From Cochliopodium minus (Eukaryota; Discosea; Himatismenida; Cochliopodiidae), in NCBI GenBank assembly GCA_024220525.1, contig JAMYWO010000170.1, positions 64,538 to 87,704 on the forward strand: a DNA stretch of 23,167 nt, given 5' to 3'. A program made the translations under genes and the position numbers. Below, piece after piece: positions 1,728-11,708 of the stretch. The notes beneath the pieces were generated by a model. It did no database searches, was not told the DNA's origin, and was given only the letters and a program-made list of their open reading frames with translations. Positions within the stretch are counted from its first letter, which is position 1, and each line of letters starts with the position of its first letter.

Positions 1728-4244
1728 ATGTCGAATGAAGAAGCTAAAAACGATTTATTATTGCTTGAAAAGGTAATCAATAAACTTGCATTTACAGAAT
1801 CTGATAAAGATGTGGAATCATTTCTCCATCAACTATTGATTCCAGTACTATTAAAATTGAATTCTCCACATGAAGAGACAAAGAAAAAAGTATTCGAAGT
1901 TTTGACACAAACAAACAAAATCATCAAGCCAAATAAAAATATCAAACTTCCCGTCTTTGAATTATTAGATTTGAATGATCAATCAACAACCACCAATGTC
2001 ATGAGAAACTTTATTATCATCTATATTGAACTGGGATTTGAAAGAGTTGAAAATATTGAAAAGGCGAAATTGATACCTCATTTATTGAAAGGAATATCTT
2101 TGAGAAGCAAATTACATAAATATACATTGTTAAAATTGGCATTAGAGGTAAGAAAAATGAAAAAAAAAAANTTTTATATATTTTTTATTATTATTTTTTT
2201 ATTTTTTATTTTTATATTTTTTGCTTTATTTATTTTATTTTTATATTTTATTTTATTTATTTAAATATAATTTTTGTATTTTTTTATGATTAAATTTTAT
2301 TTTATTTTCATTTTGTTCTTTAGGTTTCTAGCAAACTTCCAAACTGTACAAATTGTAAAATTGAACTCAAAATCGACAGCCCCACAACTTACCTCTGTGA
2401 AAAATGTGGCAAAAAATTCGCAAGAAAAGTCCAAGCTACTGCCAGTGAAAAAATTGTAAACTTAAATCAAAAATTTTATTTCTTTTCTTTTTTTTAATAG
2501 ATTTTATTATTTTATTATTTTCTTATTTTATTTATTTTTTATTCATTTTTTTATTTTTTTATTCTTTTCAATATTTTATTAAAGTTCACTTATTTTTTAT
2601 TGTTATTATTTTATTTTATTATTTTTTTTGGTTTAATTTTTATTTTTTATTTTTTTTTTAATTTAATTTTTAATTTTTATTTTTTAAATTTTTTATTTCA
2701 CATTAATTTTTTTTTAAATTTTTTTTTATCATTTTTTTTAATTTAATTTTTTAATATATCTTTTTTAACAGCAAAAAGGAATCACAAGTATTCCTACCAA
2801 AATCCCTTCCATTAGTGTAACCTCAGGCTCTCCTTCTACTAACAAGACTTCTTCTGTGAAGAAAGGCCTCTCTACTGTCAAAACTCATGAAAATTTTCGT
2901 AAAGGTAAAAAATAAAATATATAAAAAAATGAAAAATAAAATAAAAAATAAAAATAAAAATTAAACCAAAAAAAAAATAAAAATAAGAAAATAAAAATAA
3001 AAATATTGAAATAATAAATAAAAAATAAAAAATAAAATAATAAAAAATAAATAATAAAGAAAATAAATAAAAAATATAAAAAAATAAAAATAAATAAAAA
3101 AAATAATAAACATAAAAGATAAAAAATAAAAATATTGAAATAATAAATAAAATATAATAAAAAAATAATAAAAATCAAAATAAAATAAATAAATAAAAAA
3201 TATCATAATAAAGTTTAACATTAAATAAAAAATAAAACTAGAAATGAAAAAATAATAATATTAAATAATTTTAAACATCATTTTTTCATTGAAATTGAAA
3301 CAAATAATATTTATAGGATCAGTTGACACAATCATTAAACAAATTTCAACAGAAAACAAAGAAGAAGGAAACAAGATGAAAGACCTGAAAGGTAGCAAAG
3401 AACTCAACGAGAACAAGGAAGAGGGAACCCAGCAACTCAAAGATCTCAAAAACAGCAAAGAACTTGGAGACAACAAAGATTTGGGTGGAAGTAGTGATTC
3501 CATTGGCAGGAAAAGATCTGATGTAACCACCAATCCCAACATCAAAAGTTTCCTTGAAAACAGAAAGTTGTCTAATAATCCTCAAAAGTAATCCTTTTAT
3601 TTTATTTTTTATTAATTTGTTAATTTTTTTTTATTTATTTGTAAAATTATTTTAGATTAGTGTCAGATTTTTTTAAAAATTTTTTATTTTTTATTTTTTA
3701 TTTTTAATTTTAATTTTTAATTTTAATATTTTTAATTTTTTTTTTAATTTTTTTTTTAATTTTTTTGTTTGTTAATTTTTTATTTTTTTTAATTTTTAAA
3801 TATTTTTTTTATTTTTCATTTTTTTGTTTGTTAATTTTTTATTTTTTTTTAATTTTTAAATATTTTTATTTATATCTTTCATTTTTATTTTTATTTTTAA
3901 TTTTAATTTTAATATTTTTTATTTTTTTAATTTTTTAATTTTTAAATAATTGAGAAATTATTTATCTTATATTTCTAATTTTTTTTTTTTTTAGATCTTT
4001 GTCTGTTCAGGATACTTGGAATCTCAACAAACAACAAAACACTCCTTCTAGTTCTCCTTCCGTTGAAAACAAAAGTAATTCACCCATCTCAGATTTTAAA
4101 CTGCCCCTCCAACAACTTCAACAACCTCAAAAAAAGATGACAACTCTCAAATGTCCCAAGTGTACCAGTTTCTTGGAAGAAATTTCAGAGTCTGTTGTTT
4201 TTTGTGGTTCTTGCAAAAAGAAATTTGCTAAGAAAAAAAAATAA
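1728..4244 (+). CDS. Ecm29 N-terminal fragment fused to a protein with two matched CX2C-X13-CX2C zinc ribbons
   Basis: Five exons: 1728-2147, 2324-2455, 2772-2904, 3317-3587, 3995-4244 (401 residues). Exon 1 (residues 1-140) matches the start of Ecm29/KIAA0368, the HEAT-repeat adaptor tethering the 26S proteasome: LLLLEKVINKLAFTESD, PVLLKLNSPHEETKKKV, IKLPVFELL, RNFIIIYIELGF and LIPHLLKGIS in family order. The family is usually about 1800 residues, so this is only its first HEAT segment. Exon 2 starts a zinc ribbon (C148, C151, C165, C168) and the C-terminus carries a second (C372, C375, C389, C392). Both have 13 residues between pairs and are followed by a KKFA(R/K)K run. The linker (residues 185-365) is Lys/Glu/Ser/Asn-rich and holds a tandem repeat of about 19 residues beginning ENKEEG. 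Donor, acceptor and phase 0 agree across the first intron, but that intron contains the window's only N (2171), so the fusion could be an assembly join. Confidence 0.6.
2148..2323 (+). other. Intron joining Ecm29 fragment to zinc-ribbon exons, with assembly N
   Basis: GTAAGA donor, TTTAG acceptor, phase 0. The ambiguous base at 2171 lies exactly where an A run meets a T-rich run, the kind of place where reads or contigs are hard to join. The rest is T-rich simple sequence. Confidence 0.6.
2456..2771 (+). other. T-rich simple-sequence intron (316 nt)
   Basis: GTAAAC donor and AACAG acceptor. The body is almost entirely TTTTA/TTTAAT-type simple sequence on the sense strand. No gene content seen. 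Confidence 0.6.
2905..3316 (+). repeat. A-rich simple-sequence intron with a duplicated block at period about 129
   Basis: Intron 3 of the Ecm29-fragment gene (GTAAAA donor, TATAG acceptor, phase 1). It is (A)nT simple sequence on the sense strand, the opposite skew to the introns on either side. A block around ATTGAAATAATAAATAAA occurs near 3005 and again near 3134, suggesting a local tandem duplication. Long hydrophobic reading frames on the minus strand here are translations of (T)nA and are not genes. Confidence 0.6.
3588..3994 (+). repeat. T-rich intron with 59-bp tandem duplication
   Basis: Intron 4 of the same gene (GTAATC donor, TTTAG acceptor, phase 2). A segment starting GTTTGTTAATTTTT is present at 3767 and again at 3826, with matching flanks over roughly 50 nt. 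This indicates a 59-bp tandem duplication inside (T)nA simple sequence. Confidence 0.6.
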
Positions 4245-4337: not shown

Positions 4338-7157
4338 TTAAAATTCTTTTCCTTCACCAAAAAAAGAAATATTCTTTTCGTTCATAATATAAATGAGATG
4401 GTAGTAAAAGTTGGCTCCCAAGTTTGGGTTTCTCATGAAAAGAACGTGCATGAGACTTGGATCATAAGTGTAGATTTCCACTTCTTCAATACTGAAAACC
4501 TCGTAATTGGGTGTTGTTTCTGTCAAAAAGGCAACTTCTCCCTAAAAATAAAAATAAAAATAAAAATAAAAATAAAATAAAAATAAAAATGAAAATAAAA
4601 ATAAAAAAAAGTTTTTTACCCAAATATCCCCTTCTTTAAGTTGAAAGGACAAGTCCGCGTTGGAAAATCTCAATTCACATGTGCCACGAGAAAGTTGACA
4701 AAGCCTCGTTACTGAAGTTTCAAGTTTAGTGATGATCTGATTTGCTTTGAAAATTCTGGGTGTTGCTATCGTTTTTAAAATTTCCCAATAATCACTTTTA
4801 AAATAAAATTAATAAAAATTAAAAAATTACAAAAAATAATAAACAAAACTTTACCTTGACATGTTCTTTACCATTTTTCTTAATTTATTAATGTTTTTGA
4901 CTGAATTAACTTTCAGTATTTGGTTTATTTGAGAATCATTTGACTTTGAAAGTTTATTAATCGAGTTGTGTATTGATATTTTCATCTAAATAAAAAATAA
5001 ATTGTAAATTTTATTTGAATGAATTTATTTTATTTTATTTTATTTTATTATTTTTTCTTCACTTTATATTTTCTTTACCTGATCAAAAATGATTTGGTGG
5101 ACATTTTCTACGTCACTGATGTTGAAAAAAGAAAAGGGGAGGATGTGTGTGGACAACTTTATTTTCAAACTTTTTATTTTTGGTTTCAGTACTGTAATCT
5201 CTGACAAAGGCCTTTATTAAAATATAAAATTAAAATTAAAGAATAAAGTAAATGATTAAAAAAAATTTGATTAAAATTAAATTTAAAAAAATTTAAAAAA
5301 TAATTAAAATTAAAATATAATAGAAAAAAGTAAATGATTAAAAAAAATAAAAATAAAAAAATAAAAAAAAAATTACAATTTTAGTTTTGTTTTGGAAGAA
5401 GAGAAACAGAGGAAGTTTTTGGAGAGAATGAGAGTTCCCTTTTGCTTGTTGAATTTACCATAAGTACATTTGAACTCATTCAGCACTAATTCGTCATTTG
5501 GAAGTCCAAACACCTCCACCAACTCAGTACTATTCAAAAAAAAAAATAGTAAAATAATTTTAATTTTATTTGATTTTATTTTTTTAATGAAAATTTTTCA
5601 TTTTTTATTTTTTTAATGAAAATTTTTGATTTGATATTTTTTATATTTAATTTTTTTATTTTATATTTAATTTTGATTTTTTGATTGATTAATTTACTGA
5701 ATATTTTTTAATATTTCTTGAAATTTTAACAATTAAAAAATTTATTTAATCTTAGTAATCATTTTTATTATTTATTTTTTGAAACAATTTTTATTTTTTT
5801 TTTTGAAATTTTTTTTTTGTTTCAAATTTTTATTATTTTTAAAAATTTTTGTTATTTTTAAAAATTTTTATTTTTTTTGAAATATTTTTTTTTGTTTCAA
5901 ATTTTTTATTTTTGTTTTCATTTGAATTAATTTTATTTTATTTTATTTTAATTTCAATATTTTTTTTATTTTTTTTTGATTTTTACTCTTTTTTGGAGAA
6001 TCCATCATCTTCAGAGGAAACCCAAGACTTAAGAGCAGTGATGATTCTGTCTTGTTTGTCCTTGTTCTCTTCCTTTTTGTTGAAAGTAGTTTTTCCCTGG
6101 TTCGCTCTCATCATCATCGATATCTTCTTTGCGAATTGTATTGCTGTTTCGAAAGAAGCATTCACAGAAATAAAAAAATTTAATAAAAAATAAAAAAATA
6201 AAAATAAAAAATAAAAAATAAAAAATAAAAAATAAAAAATAAATACTATCAAAAAAATTTAAAATAATTTAAAAAAATTGAAATAAAAATTAAAAAAAAT
6301 TTAAAAAAAATAATAAATAAAAATAAAAATAAATAAAAACATATCAATAAAAAAATTTAAAATAAAAACAAATAAAAACAAAAACAAAACAAAAATTTTG
6401 AAAAAAAGCGAAATACAAAATAGTAAAAATAAAAAAATTAATAGAAAATTGAAAAAAAAAAATATTAATTTTACCCAAATCATGAAAAAACCGAAACTTC
6501 AAGCCAGTATTCTTTTTGAAGAGTGAATCAATGGAGGGAATGGGAAACACGCTTATTTTGGTCTCGTTCTGAGAAACAAAAACGTCTTCATAAGTAGTTT
6601 CTACGTGGCTCAAAACACAAAGATCATTGAACGTATCCCCTTTTAATTGATAAACAAAAAATAAAATAACAAATAATATAAAATGAAGTAAATAAAAATA
6701 AAATAAAATAAGACAAAAAAAAAAGAAAAAATAAATAAAAATAAAGGTAAAATAAAAATGAAAATAAATAAGTGAATAAAATAAAAAAATTTTAAAATGA
6801 AAAATAATTTAAAATAAAAACTAATTAATAAAAATAAAAAACAAAATATTAAAAATAAAAAAAGTATTCACCTAACAAAGGAGAAAAGGTGAACTCTTCG
6901 CATTCCTCTTTCTTCCACAAGTAGGATATTTTGACAGATCCGCTCAAAAGTCGGTAGATACACTTGTTGGTTTCATTTGGTTTCACAATGTACTCACCTT
7001 TTAATAAAAAATAAACAAAAAAAATATGAATAAATAAAATAAATAAAATTAAATAAATAAATAATAAATAAAAAATATACAAAAAAATAAATAAATAAAT
7101 GAAAAAATAAAGTAAATAAAAAAAATAAATACATTAATAAAAATAAATAAATAAATG

Positions 7158-7188
<31 letters not shown>

Positions 7189-10100
7189 TAAAAATAAAAA
7201 TAAATAAATAAATAAAAATAAAAAATAAAATAAAATTTTACCTTTAGAAAAAGTCAGTATGTTTCCTATAGACTCTAATACCTTCCAGTCCCTATCGCTG
7301 ATGAGGTAGGAGAAGTATTTGCCTTTGTTTTGTTGGATGACTTGTATGGATGATTTGAGCTCTTCCATCTTTGATTTCTTTTCGGATTTTGGAGTAGAAA
7401 GCTTTCTTTCTTGCATGTCCCCTAAAATTAAAAAAAGGTGTTTAAAATCAAAATTATTTTTTTCATTTTTAAAAAATATTTAAAATAAAAAATTACAAAC
7501 TATAACATAAAATAATAAAAATAAAATCAAAAAAAATAAAAAAATATAAATAAAAATAAAAATATAAAATAATAAAAAATTATTTAAATTATTTGATACT
7601 TGGGAAAATATTTTAGTCAAAATAATAAAGTTTAAATAAAAAATGAGTAAAATAAATAAACTTTTTTTAAAAAAAAAATTAACTACCTAATTTTTTGATT
7701 ACTCTTTGATATTTGGAAGTGAAATTAGTAAGTTTGTTTCCATTTTCTTTCAAAACACACTTTGAACTGTCAAAATGGCCAACTCGCTTCAAATCCACAA
7801 TAATGAGGAATTCCTCGAGAAGCAATCCCTTAAGAATAGTAAGAGCATCGATTCTTTCGATCTCCAAGTGAGCAGAGAGCCAGTCGATACATTCTCCGCC
7901 TATGATGCAATCTTTGTAACTTGTTTCGTTTATTTCTCTCGTCATTTTCAAAACTCCAAATGTAATATTTGTCATTGATATCAAAACGTGCATTAACTAT
8001 ATTGGTCAAAAAAATGTTGGTGAAATTTTAAGACAAAGAAAATGAATAACAAACAGTTTAAAAAAAAAAAAAGTTTAAAAAATTAAACAATAAATGAAAT
8101 TAATGAAGTTCAAAAAAAAAATTTAAAAAAATAAAATTTGAAATTTAACAATTAACAAAAAAAATTTTAAAAAAAAAATAATAATTTTGAAACAAAAAAA
8201 TTTTTACCAATTTCTTCTTTTCTATTTCAAGTTTGATTTTTTTGTTTCTGCTTTGAGATTCGCTAGTGTTAGTTCTGTCCCTCTTCTTCTTTGATTCAAA
8301 CAAATTGTTGAAAATCTCTTTTTTACTTTCTTTGAAAAGCAAGAAATCTTCGAACCACTGATCTGATGTTTTTCCTGTTTGAGGATCTATAAGTGTTTCC
8401 ATTTTGGTAGTGGTTATGATGGAACCTCTCTTCTTTTCTTTTTTGTTTTTGACTAATGAGTGTAATGTTAATAATGTCTCATCTTTTTGATCTACATCTT
8501 TAATGAATGAGTGCTAATGAAAAAAAAATTTGAAAAAAAAAATGTAAGGAATGATTATAAGAAAAAAATAAAAAAATAATTGTAAAAATAATGAAATTAA
8601 ATAGAATAAATTATTTATTATTTAAAATCTAAATAAAAAAATTTTAAAAAATAAATTACGTTTAATAAATCACTTGCAGAAGATCTGTCTTCTACTGACA
8701 CAGTAAGACATTTTGAGATAAAATCAACAAACTCTGGCGAATAATTCTCCGGTTTAGAAAGACCAGGAGGAGAGGTCATCAAATCTGTCACCAAAATGAA
8801 AAGATAGTTCATTGGTGCTTTGTCTGCGTATGGAGGCTGTCCTTCTGCTAACTCAATACAAGTAATACCCAATGCCCATACATCTGATTTGGTCGTAATA
8901 TTGTTTTCCAAAACTATTTTAAAAAATTTTTAGAAATATTTAAAATCAGTTTTAAAAAAAAAATTGTTTTACCCTCTGGAGATCTATTTTAAAGAAATTT
9001 TAATGTTTAATTTATTAAAATTTTAAATTTTTATTTATCAGTTTACAAAAAGTATGGTGTTCCTTTTAACCCATGAACGTTTGAAGTTGATCCGTTAGGC
9101 GAAGGGCTGCTGGACTTTTCACTTTCTATGTTCTCTAAGAGAGAAACTTCTCCGAAATCACCCAATTTAGCTTCTCCCTTTGAATTCAAAAGAATCTAAA
9201 ATAATGAAAATAATTTTTTAAAATTTTTAAAACAAATTTTTTCTTTTATTTTTTTTAATTTTTTTTTTTAGTTTATTTTTATTTTTATTTTTACATTTGC
9301 TGCTTTAACATCTCTGTGTACCATAAACTTATGCAAAAAATTAAATGCTTCAGAAATGTGTCTGCACACCACCTTTATCTCTTGTTCTGATAACGGCCTT
9401 TGCAAAACATCCATCACGTGCATGAACGATCCACTTGAGCAATACTCCATCACAAGCTAGAAAAGAAAGAAATTAGAGTTTGAATTTTTGATGTTGGATT
9501 AAAAATTAATTGTGATTATATTTACTTTTATTATTTTTTTTTAATTCCACTCTTTAAATTTTTTTAAAAAAAAAAAATTTATTTTGCTTTTTACCCATAA
9601 ATCATTCATTCCCAATAGATTCTTGTTTTGGATGAAATATGTGGAAATGTATTTAATACAGTAGGGTGCGTTCTCGCAGGATAATAGACTATCTCTCTCC
9701 ATCATTATCTCTGACAATTCGTTCTTGTTGCAGAATTTCAACACTTTTATCGCTGCATTCTCTTTGGTTTGTGTATTTCTCGCTTTGTATATTACTCCGA
9801 AGGCACTATTAGTGAATAAAATTAAATATTTATTCAAATATAAATTTTAAATCTTCAAAAAGAATTTAATAATCTGCAGATTTATATTTATCCATCACTT
9901 ATTTAGATCCAAAGATTGAAATATTTTCATCATAGTGAATATTTTATGTTATATCCTATATTTTTTTTTAAAGATAGCAATCCAAAAATATAACAAGAAA
10001 ATATGCTTATCATTAAAATGATTGATTCTATTTTCCTTTGATCCATATTGCGGAATTTTAACCATATTTGTTAGAGTCAGACATCAAAATTGAAAAGGAG

Positions 10101-10446
10101 TTAAATAAATATAAATATATTTTGTTATTCCAATTTATTGAATGTCATCATTTCATAGTTCTTTAAAATATGAGTGTTGGATTTAAAAATATTGAAATAT
10201 TCGATATTTATCCTTTAAATATAATAAAATGGTTCAAATTTTGGTGACTTACCCATTGCCTATTTTTCTTATGATCTCATATGGAGGCTTTTCGTTGGAT
10301 GATATATTTTCGACGTTGTTGAATTGAGGAGTTTTGGGATTCTGATTGAAAGGAAGTTTTTTTCCATAAGAACTCCTATTGTTGATTCTATCGACTGATG
10401 TTTTCAAATGTTTAAGATTATTCTTCGAAGATATCTCATTATCCAT
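4338..10446 (-). CDS. STE20-like protein kinase - DEP - cNMP-binding - GRAM - cNMP-binding protein
   Basis: Seventeen exons on the minus strand: 10446-10253, 9805-9595, 9456-9295, 9195-9047, 8983-8973, 8913-8660, 8513-8208, 7996-7687, 7421-7242, 6997-6872, 6639-6475, 6143-5987, 5529-5377, 5211-5079, 4985-4855, 4794-4620, 4541-4338 (1006 residues; all phases agree). Kinase, residues about 55-331: GNGAFGV loop (63-69), AAIK lysine K85, HRD D184 with K186 and N189, DFG D202, GTPYFLSPE (234-242), KSDVWALGITCIELAEGQPP, DLLNHSFI end; this is closest to STE20/MST kinases. A Ser-rich insert of about 20 residues sits between DFG and the GTP motif. DEP follows (about 432-518; IIGGECIDWL), then cNB-A (about 565-700; FSKGEYIV, RLLSGSVKI), GRAM (about 745-835; FGLPNDELVLNEF, KLKLPLSEI) and cNB-B (about 875-1000; GDIWGEVAFL). 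Neither cNB shows the usual phosphate-binding Arg. I recall the same C-terminal order from Dictyostelium GbpC. It is likely a cytosolic, membrane-recruited signalling kinase. The kinase-DEP link rests on the 8207-7997 intron. Confidence 0.8.
4542..4619 (-). repeat. Hexanucleotide (A5T)n intron
   Basis: The last intron of the kinase gene (GTAAAA donor, TTTAG acceptor in minus orientation) is built almost wholly of AAAAAT/ATTTTT hexamers. An intron in the CLU gene (14467-14559) is built of the same hexamer. Confidence 0.7.
5530..5986 (-). repeat. 457-nt simple-sequence intron with internal duplications
   Basis: Intron 12 of the kinase gene. On the plus strand it is T-rich, so it is A-rich in the sense direction, opposite to most introns of this gene. 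A GAAATTTTTTTTTTG... then TTTCAAATTTTT segment occurs near 5802 and again near 5879, and a TTTTTTAATGAAAATTTTT segment is repeated near 5581 and 5612. No coding signal seen. Confidence 0.55.
6144..6474 (-). repeat. A-rich (plus strand) simple-sequence intron
   Basis: Intron 11 of the kinase gene (331 nt). It includes a run of AAAAAAT heptamers around 6190-6240. Nothing else was recognised. Confidence 0.55.
6998..7241 (-). repeat. (AAAT)n intron within cNB-A
   Basis: Intron 9 of the kinase gene (244 nt) is dominated by TAAA/AAAT tetranucleotides, especially 7080-7230, with an AAAG acceptor. Exons on both sides join to FSKGEYIVKP, a canonical cNMP-domain turn. Confidence 0.6.
8973..8983 (-). 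other. 11-nt micro-exon encoding the activation-segment SPE motif
   Basis: Between two introns of about 60 nt (9046-8984 and 8972-8914) lies an exon of only 11 nt, flanked by TAG and GTAAAA. Including it gives TPYFLSPEVLENN across the junctions, exactly the GTPYxxxPEV pattern of STE20 kinases. Leaving it out shifts the frame, so the micro-exon is strongly supported by protein conservation. Confidence 0.8.
9806..10252 (-). other. Long first intron of the kinase gene with mixed composition
   Basis: 447 nt, GTAAGT donor (the most consensus-like donor in the gene) and TAATAG acceptor; it splits the glycine-rich loop codon. Unlike the other introns it is not a monotonous T or A tract but has ordinary mixed AT-rich sequence, resembling the intergenic regions. 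It might hold regulatory sequence, but no motif or ORF was recognised. Confidence 0.5.
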
Positions 10447-10930: not shown

Positions 10931-11708
10931 ATGGGATTTTTACTTTCATTATTTAAAAGACTTGAAGATAAAAGAGTAGTAATGGTAAAACTAGATTTTA
11001 ATAAAAATCAACGATAAAAAGATGGATTGAAAAAATTTTGTTTATTTGAAAGATAGGACTAGATAATGCAGGAAAAACGACAATCCTCTATAATCTAAAA
11101 TTGGGAGGAGTTATTGTAAATAATTGCTTTAATTTTTTTACAAAGAATACTTTTTAATTCTAATTTTAGAGTACAATTCCTACAGTAGGTATTACTATCA
11201 ACTTCAATATTGATAAGTTTTGTTAACTGTTATTTATTCAAAAAAGGATTCAATATAGAATCTATCCAATACAAAAAATTTGAATTGATAATATGGGATC
11301 TTGGAGGACAAAAGAAATCAAGAACGTAAATACATTTTTTTTTTATTTCCTCTCAATATTTTTGCTTTCATAATAATTAATCCAATTTCCTTAATATCAA
11401 GATTATGGAAACATTATCTTGTCAATGCAGATGCTATTATTTATGTTGTTGATTCTAGTGATGTGAATAGAATAGAAGAATCAAGAGAAGAATTGAATGA
11501 TGTATTAAAATCAGAATTTTTAAAGAAAGATTCCAAAGTTTTAATATATGCTAATAAACAAGACATCAAAGATTCTTTCAATCAAAAACAAATATACGAT
11601 AAATTAAAACTTCAATTTGTAAAACAAACTTTTCATGTTCAACCATGCTCAGCATTAAATGGAGATGGATTAAAGGAAGGATTAGAATGGCTTTCAAATA
11701 TCATTTAA
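10931..11708 (+). CDS. Arf/Arl family small GTPase
   Basis: Five exons: 10931-10984, 11053-11115, 11170-11188, 11247-11325, 11402-11708 (173 residues, close to the usual 175-185). Gly2 is available for myristoylation, followed by an amphipathic start (FLLSLFKRL), as in Arf proteins that dock on membranes. G1 is GLDNAGKTT, the switch I region has IPTVGFNIESIQYK, G3 is WDLGGQ with the catalytic Gln, G4 is NKQD and G5 is CSALNGDGL. Exon 3 is only 19 nt. Three of four acceptors are AAG. The sequence fits Arf1/Arl1-type trafficking GTPases best by eye, but the exact subfamily is unsettled (GGQKKSRTLWKHYL rather than GGQxxIRxLWxxYY). It shares a divergent promoter region with the kinase gene. Confidence 0.88.

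Follow-up and report, generated by a model that had tools for sequence, protein, structure and literature searches.

A STE20-type kinase gene with DEP and cNB-GRAM-cNB domains in Cochliopodium minus

The gene and its model

The window analyzed here is the whole 23,167-nucleotide (nt) stretch of contig JAMYWO010000170.1 from Cochliopodium minus, and its minus strand carries, from 10446 to 4338, a gene of 17 exons that would encode a protein of 1006 amino acids in which a STE20-type protein kinase domain is followed by a DEP domain and then by two cyclic-nucleotide-binding (cNB) folds that flank a GRAM domain. The exons are positioned at 10446-10253, 9805-9595, 9456-9295, 9195-9047, 8983-8973 and 8913-8660 (exons 1 to 6), at 8513-8208, 7996-7687, 7421-7242, 6997-6872, 6639-6475 and 6143-5987 (exons 7 to 12), and at 5529-5377, 5211-5079, 4985-4855, 4794-4620 and 4541-4338 (exons 13 to 17). 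This chain had been proposed in an earlier note on the same DNA and, when it was rebuilt, all 16 introns proved to be GT-AG introns with consistent phases. The spliced open reading frame is 3021 nt long, 1006 codons and a TAA, without a frame break, and there is an in-frame TAA immediately 5′ to the ATG at 10446. The introns are 59 to 457 nt in length with a G+C content of 4-20%, and every one contains stops in at least two of the three reading frames.

A Pfam search of the 1006-residue product found the kinase, DEP, cNB, GRAM and cNB domains in the order given in the earlier note. The kinase domain (8502..10281, residues 56-331, exons 1 to 7) has an expectation value (E) of 3.2e-52, and is completed in the gene model by a microexon of 11 nt (8983-8973). 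The DEP domain (7763..7951, residues 445-507, exon 8) scores 37.8 bits (1.9e-9) against a cut-off of 32.7, and the linker that joins kinase to DEP (7952..8501) consists of the end of exon 7, the intron and the start of exon 8.

The genome that contains the window comprises 44.65 Mb in 598 contigs, and all relatives compared below, designated by C and L numbers, are from this same genome. The closest in organization is the C10 gene (L053:443-4966, 18 exons, 944 residues), modeled, as is the window gene, from sequence only. It has the same domain order, and its kinase is also completed by a microexon, in this case of 5 nt (L053:832-836). Residues 48-995 of the window protein align with the C10 protein with 27.6% identity (blastp, 5e-93), and 277 of the 909 columns of the alignment of the two proteins are identical. 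In the C10 gene, a single exon, L053:1824-2233, encodes the linker between kinase and DEP together with the first part of the DEP domain, so that the fusion of kinase to tail does not depend on the splice between 8207 and 7997 in the window. A transcript boundary in that interval, which the earlier note had named as its refuter, is made unlikely by this exon. Three of the 16 introns are shared with C10 in place and phase (p 0.0098, 20,000 random placements); all three are within the kinase and are therefore uninformative on the fusion. A real single gene, predicted to encode a STE20-type kinase joined to DEP and cNB-GRAM-cNB domains, is thus confirmed.

The kinase domain

The motifs expected of a working protein kinase are readily apparent in the window sequence, namely a GNGAFG loop, the lysine of AAIK, HRDVKAAN, GDFGEV, GTPYFLSPE and SDVW, and in alignment the glycine loop, lysine, HRD, DFG and (S/A)PE are all conserved in both the window and C10 kinases. 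When compared with solved structures in the PDB, the window kinase matches STK4/MST1 best (9.5e-55), and the best 60 of its 2613 matches all have names that we take to be those of STE20-family kinases, as do the best 60 of 2759 for the C10 kinase. A Roco-type kinase encoded at C428 in the same genome, used as a control, matches Dictyostelium roco4 first (6.3e-44), so the comparison does discriminate Roco kinases. The window kinase can therefore be assigned, from its sequence, to the STE20 class with its catalytic residues predicted to be intact, and the complete STE20-like kinase of the earlier note stands.

Kinase-domain matches to the window were also obtained at C378 (6.5e-28), C492 (1.9e-22) and C58 (3.8e-20). 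The C378 kinase has PAK1 as its best PDB match (1e-32), and its best 60 matches are to 54 STE20-family and 6 calcium-dependent kinases. As the C378 and C58 kinases have HNN in place of HRD and DFS in place of DFG, and by eye no glycine loop, both are regarded as pseudokinases.

The linker and DEP domain

With linker and DEP taken together, the window matches C10 (1e-15), C378 (1.5e-9), C58 (3e-8) and C90 (0.002), whereas among the controls the DEP domains of C459 (0.19), C492 (0.28) and C153 (0.13) do not approach these values, and a C284 stretch gives 1.8e-4. With the linker alone, by blastp with the composition correction off, C10 (1.8e-6) and C90 (2.2e-5) match the window. The linker-DEP-like stretch of C90 is located upstream and matches C378 at 5.8e-23. 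A predicted kinase-linker-DEP unit common to the window and C10 genes is well supported, its extension to C378 is fairly supported, and for C58 it would rest on the DEP domain.

The cNB-GRAM-cNB tail

The first cNB (6509..7254, residues 589-678, exons 9 to 11) has a Pfam score of 25.4 bits (1.4e-5) and the phosphate-binding cassette sequence FNDLCVLSHVETTYEDV, and the second (4431..4757, residues 894-976, exons 16 and 17) has 25.8 bits (1.1e-5) and the cassette WGEVAFLTETTPNYEV; both cassettes are without the arginine. Between them, GRAM (5181..5513, residues 748-803 matched, exons 13 and 14) scores 32.0 bits (1.2e-7) against a cut-off of 23.6. In the search of the whole product, GRAM is again found at 748-803 (3.4e-6), and cNMP_binding matches two stretches with a combined value of 3.6e-11. 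The earlier note's claim of GRAM and cNB folds was borne out by these domain searches for GRAM directly and, for the two cNBs, with the support of family profiles. A profile of the seven second cNBs of the family described below matches 229 PDB sequences at 0.01, the best being apicomplexan PCR12 (4.6e-32) and PKG (6.7e-31), followed by PKA-R chains, and since the two cNBs of C10 score 94.7 bits by Pfam and this profile reaches PCR12, PKG and PKA-R, the weakly scoring cNBs of the window gain support. A profile of six GRAM sequences has two PDB matches at 0.1, the best a Lam6 chain (7.8e-13). The cNB-GRAM-cNB order of a GbpC/GbpD-type tail is, on the Pfam and family-profile results, present in the window gene.

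Tails on other heads in the same genome

Searches within the genome identified, as lower bounds, at least 18 exon matches for GRAM, 59 for cNB, 66 for DEP, 171 for RasGEF and 71 for RapGAP. The tail, or readable parts of it, is present at 11 loci, including the window, on differing heads. C10, like the window, has a live STE20 kinase and DEP as its head. At C378 (L060+L059), pseudokinase, DEP, RapGAP, cNB, GRAM and cNB follow one another within one 8.5-kb stretch; Pfam identifies the kinase (5.9e-36), DEP (7.3e-7), RapGAP (1.9e-32) and second cNB (1.1e-14), the first cNB has no Pfam match and GRAM was recognized by eye. C58 encodes a pseudokinase, DEP, PH and RhoGAP, with DEP and RhoGAP below cut-off, and a GRAM-cNB some kb further on that is putatively part of the same gene. 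RapGAP heads are present at C454 (3e-58) and C90 (9.5e-36) and, assigned by position, at C132 and C195, the latter with a weak cNB match (0.035). C75 has a RhoGEF head (2.5e-9) with a weak PH match, C284 a RasGEF head (1.3e-49) with a weak GRAM match (0.0023), and C459 a DEP-C2-RasGEF_N-RasGEF head (RasGEF 5.3e-61) with the start of a GRAM recognized by eye. GRAM and cNB matches are also present at C156, which is not counted among these 11 loci.

The window tail matches those of C284 (2e-15), C454 (3e-19), C90 (3e-16) and C75 (1e-16) and, judged by such matches, the tails on kinase, RapGAP, RhoGEF and RasGEF heads are homologous. A live kinase with no GTPase-regulator domain is found in two genes (window and C10), and a dead kinase beside a GAP in two others (C378 and C58). 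Two assignments were tried and rejected. C58, which has exons for PH and RhoGAP, is not a plain third copy of the window gene. The kinase that precedes C284, by eye of the FHA-CAMK type, ends before the RasGEF gene and is not part of it.

Comparison with GbpC and other known systems

GbpC is a founding member of the Roco/LRRK2-type proteins, and its domain arrangement, kinase-DEP-GEF-cNB-GRAM-cNB, is commonly interpreted as a circuit driven by cGMP. We compared the window gene with GbpC by published domain order rather than by GbpC sequence. That order, in a passage of one paper (PMC6320773), is LRR, Ras (Roc), kinase, RasGEF-N, DEP, RasGEF, cGMP-binding, GRAM and cGMP-binding; a passage of another (PMC11988041) matches the C-terminal half of GbpC to GbpD, in which an older paper counted three cNMP domains (PMC1273635). 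GbpC and the window protein both have a kinase, then DEP, then cNB-GRAM-cNB, with GRAM between the two cNBs, but the kinase is a Roco kinase in GbpC and a STE20 kinase here, and the LRR, Roc, COR, RasGEF-N and RasGEF of GbpC are absent from the window gene. As the earlier note had stated, no Roc, COR or RasGEF was found among the 8 Pfam families reported for the 1006-residue product at E up to 1. The window gene shares its tail with GbpD but lacks the RasGEF; the RasGEF-then-tail order of GbpD is found in this genome at C284 and C459.

The C378 gene has the same slot order as GbpC, with a STE20-like pseudokinase in place of the Roco kinase and a RapGAP in place of the RasGEF. It resembles the window gene in kinase, linker and DEP, and type of tail but differs in the HNN and DFS of its pseudokinase and in having a RapGAP between DEP and tail. 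Because C378 holds kinase, DEP, RapGAP, cNB, GRAM and cNB, the window gene is best read as this scaffold without its GTPase regulator, the slot being empty when compared with GbpC. Within a kinase-DEP-[GTPase regulator]-cNB-GRAM-cNB scaffold, the window gene would then represent the branch with a live kinase, and C378, and perhaps C58, would be a GAP-bearing branch in which the kinase looks dead. The earlier description of the gene as independently assembled or trimmed was a fair one in that sense. The exact domain order, for which the earlier note knew of no described protein, is not unique, being shared by C10, and the tail itself occurs on other heads; in the open-licence PMC literature, as covered by titles and the openings of abstracts of the papers listed, neither a STE20 kinase nor a RapGAP with a cNB-GRAM-cNB tail was found.

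Assembly of the STE20-DEP-tail genes by domain shuffling, with no scaffold ancestry in common with GbpC, has a chance that falls a little short of even. The difference in kinase class, STE20 versus Roco, and the presence of the tail on several heads in this genome are consistent with such convergence, but C378 repeats the GbpC order kinase, DEP, GTPase regulator, cNB, GRAM and cNB, which is a long order to reach twice. Convergence is also compatible with the explanation that we prefer for the function of the window gene, given below.

The nearest solved kinases among the best 60 PDB matches are MST1/2 (STK4/STK3), which share the intact catalytic motifs, and the window protein differs from them in its DEP and cNB-GRAM-cNB regulatory part. 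PKG likewise has tandem cNB folds and a kinase on one polypeptide, but the PKG kinase is of the AGC type and that of the window is not, and the window cNBs are C-terminal, interrupted by GRAM and without the arginine.

At C428 (L063, G000:C428:7000-16600), the Roco-type kinase is located ~1.2 kb downstream of a COR-A match, and a cNB with a tail-like look lies ~7 kb beyond the kinase on the same strand (2.9e-5, below cut-off). This is possibly a true GbpC-like Roco gene, if the elements are parts of one gene.

Cyclic-nucleotide binding

The alignment of the second-cNB profile to PKG was used to locate the columns of PKA-RI Arg209 and Ala202. At the position of Arg209, the seven second cNBs have T, P (the window), A, T, T, A and T, with no arginine in any, and at that of Ala202 all seven have S or A. 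The glutamate of the GE in the cassette is retained in six of seven; the window has WGE in its second cNB and FND, with aspartate, in its first. By eye, the phosphate-binding arginine is also absent from six aligned first cNBs, including that of the window, and in the first cNBs of C454 and C90 the portion with the arginine site is mostly deleted. The first cNB of C132, outside the alignment, does have an arginine near the phosphate site. As a control, the 20 cNB loci listed from this genome include four with P-R-x-A-T, two at C32 and two at C443, which are PKA-R-like by eye. With the phosphate-binding arginine gone, the cNBs would more probably act as a hinge or clamp than as ordinary receptors for cAMP or cGMP, and those of the window are probably not ordinary cyclic-nucleotide sensors. 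On this point, a difference between the window cNBs and those of GbpC is putative. When the earlier note spoke of a version of the pathway, it overstated the case if cGMP signaling was meant.

A STE20 kinase gated by cGMP or cAMP, in which binding to one or both cNBs would lift inhibition of the kinase as in PKG or GbpC, is possible but unlikely. The cNB-GRAM-cNB order shared with GbpC and GbpD, the matches of the family cNB profile to PKG and PKA-R structures, and the occurrence of cyclase-family domains in the same genome are consistent with such gating, but arginine is missing from the phosphate position of all seven second cNBs and, by eye, of six first cNBs, and is retained in four cNBs elsewhere in the genome. 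Canonical cyclic-nucleotide control of the window kinase would be less likely than a ligand-independent clamp.

It is quite improbable that the cNBs sense a different small ligand, such as a nucleoside. A passage in one paper describes the PKA-R of trypanosomatids as nucleoside-binding, with the arginine lost, polar residues at its site and a glutamate that binds the ribose (PMC10959531). The replacement of arginine in the family by T (4/7), A (2/7) or P (1/7) is compatible with a similar change, but the place of the ribose-binding glutamate, that of Ala202, has serine or alanine in all seven.

One cyclase-family locus is itself unusual. At G000:C1:261696-266636, five matches to PF00211 are spaced ~1.1 kb apart in one frame of 1940 residues, and three of them have equal scores.

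A proposed function for the window gene

We favor, with a probability of roughly 0.55, a reading in which the window gene encodes a STE20-family (MST/GCK-like) kinase that is membrane-targeted and autoregulated, its activity and location being set by the C-terminal DEP and cNB-GRAM-cNB domains. GRAM and DEP would bring the protein to the membrane, as suggested by their domain families and by analogy with the GRAM of GbpC, on which membrane association is reported to depend (PMC6320773). The pair of cNBs may act as a hinge, or as an autoinhibitory clamp that holds the kinase in check, and recruitment would then free the kinase to phosphorylate cortical or actin-linked targets.

Several points weigh against this reading or its evolutionary setting. 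The proposed lipid binding and autoinhibition are argued solely from domain families, cyclase-family domains do occur in the genome (at least 11 exon matches), and a cNB may bind its ligand even where the canonical arginine is missing. Each window cNB, scanned singly, falls narrowly below the Pfam cut-off of 27.5 bits, and the DEP domains of C10 (26.6), C378 (29.5) and C58 (25.5) are below theirs of 32.7; Pfam finds no DEP in the C90 stretch. With the linker alone, in the same blastp comparison, the window-C378 match is weak (0.005) and window-C58 gives no match. The kinase of C58 matches that of the window less well than does the C492 kinase, which has no linked tail, and kinase domains alone are therefore insufficient to prove a kinase-linker-DEP unit. 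The split between live kinase without GAP and dead kinase with GAP is based on two genes each, with the tail of C58 unproven, and is a lead, not a law. All the family relatives are from one genome.

The idea that two neighboring genes, one for a STE20 kinase and one for a DEP-cNB-GRAM-cNB protein, were wrongly merged at 8207/7997 is scarcely credible and was rejected. In its favor, the 211-nt gap is big enough for a promoter and TTA ATG opens exon 8, but donor and acceptor at the exon 7-8 junction are both in phase 0, linker and DEP are homologous to those of C378 and C58, and the bridging exon of the C10 gene, itself predicted from sequence, argues against it.

Beyond the autoregulated kinase itself, a wider and more doubtful proposition is that the tail is a portable membrane-control cassette, ligand-independent or responsive to something other than cyclic nucleotides, that is used on STE20 kinases, RapGAPs, RhoGEFs and RasGEFs. 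In the kinase-DEP scaffold, the output would come from a live kinase in some genes and from a GAP beside a dead kinase in others, the two never being combined. If so, the layout known from GbpC as a cGMP pathway would be one particular instance of a more ancient combinatorial system. In this genome the same slots are filled by a STE20 kinase or a RapGAP, or are left empty, and the phosphate arginine is missing from the aligned cNBs, which separates the layout from both the ligand and the Roco kinase. It becomes testable whether such tails are sensors or modules for membrane recruitment and autoinhibition, and whether the layout predates the slime molds, and the window gene would be a door to a larger modular family.

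Neighboring genes and other loci

Two plus-strand frames flank the window gene. One is convergent to it and ends at 4244, its last part weakly resembling a zinc ribbon, and an Arf-family frame at 11292-11708, taken here without its first exons, is divergent from it. On the plus strand at 349-1520, an F-box (3.2e-6) precedes exons in which a DVETT stretch resembles, by eye, a DEDD exonuclease; Pfam at 0.01 gave F-box families only for this region.

Elsewhere in the genome, one strand of L056 (G000:C492:12600-16600) carries STE20-like kinase exons, a globin (9.9e-6), a DEP (4.6e-16) and a PH domain (8.8e-6), and continues into a glutathione-peroxidase-like start (8e-4, below cut-off). A globin-DEP-PH-peroxidase fusion would be odd, and this is a candidate fusion with provisional gene limits. 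Fe-Fe hydrogenase exons are also present in the genome (2 matches), suggesting an anaerobe.

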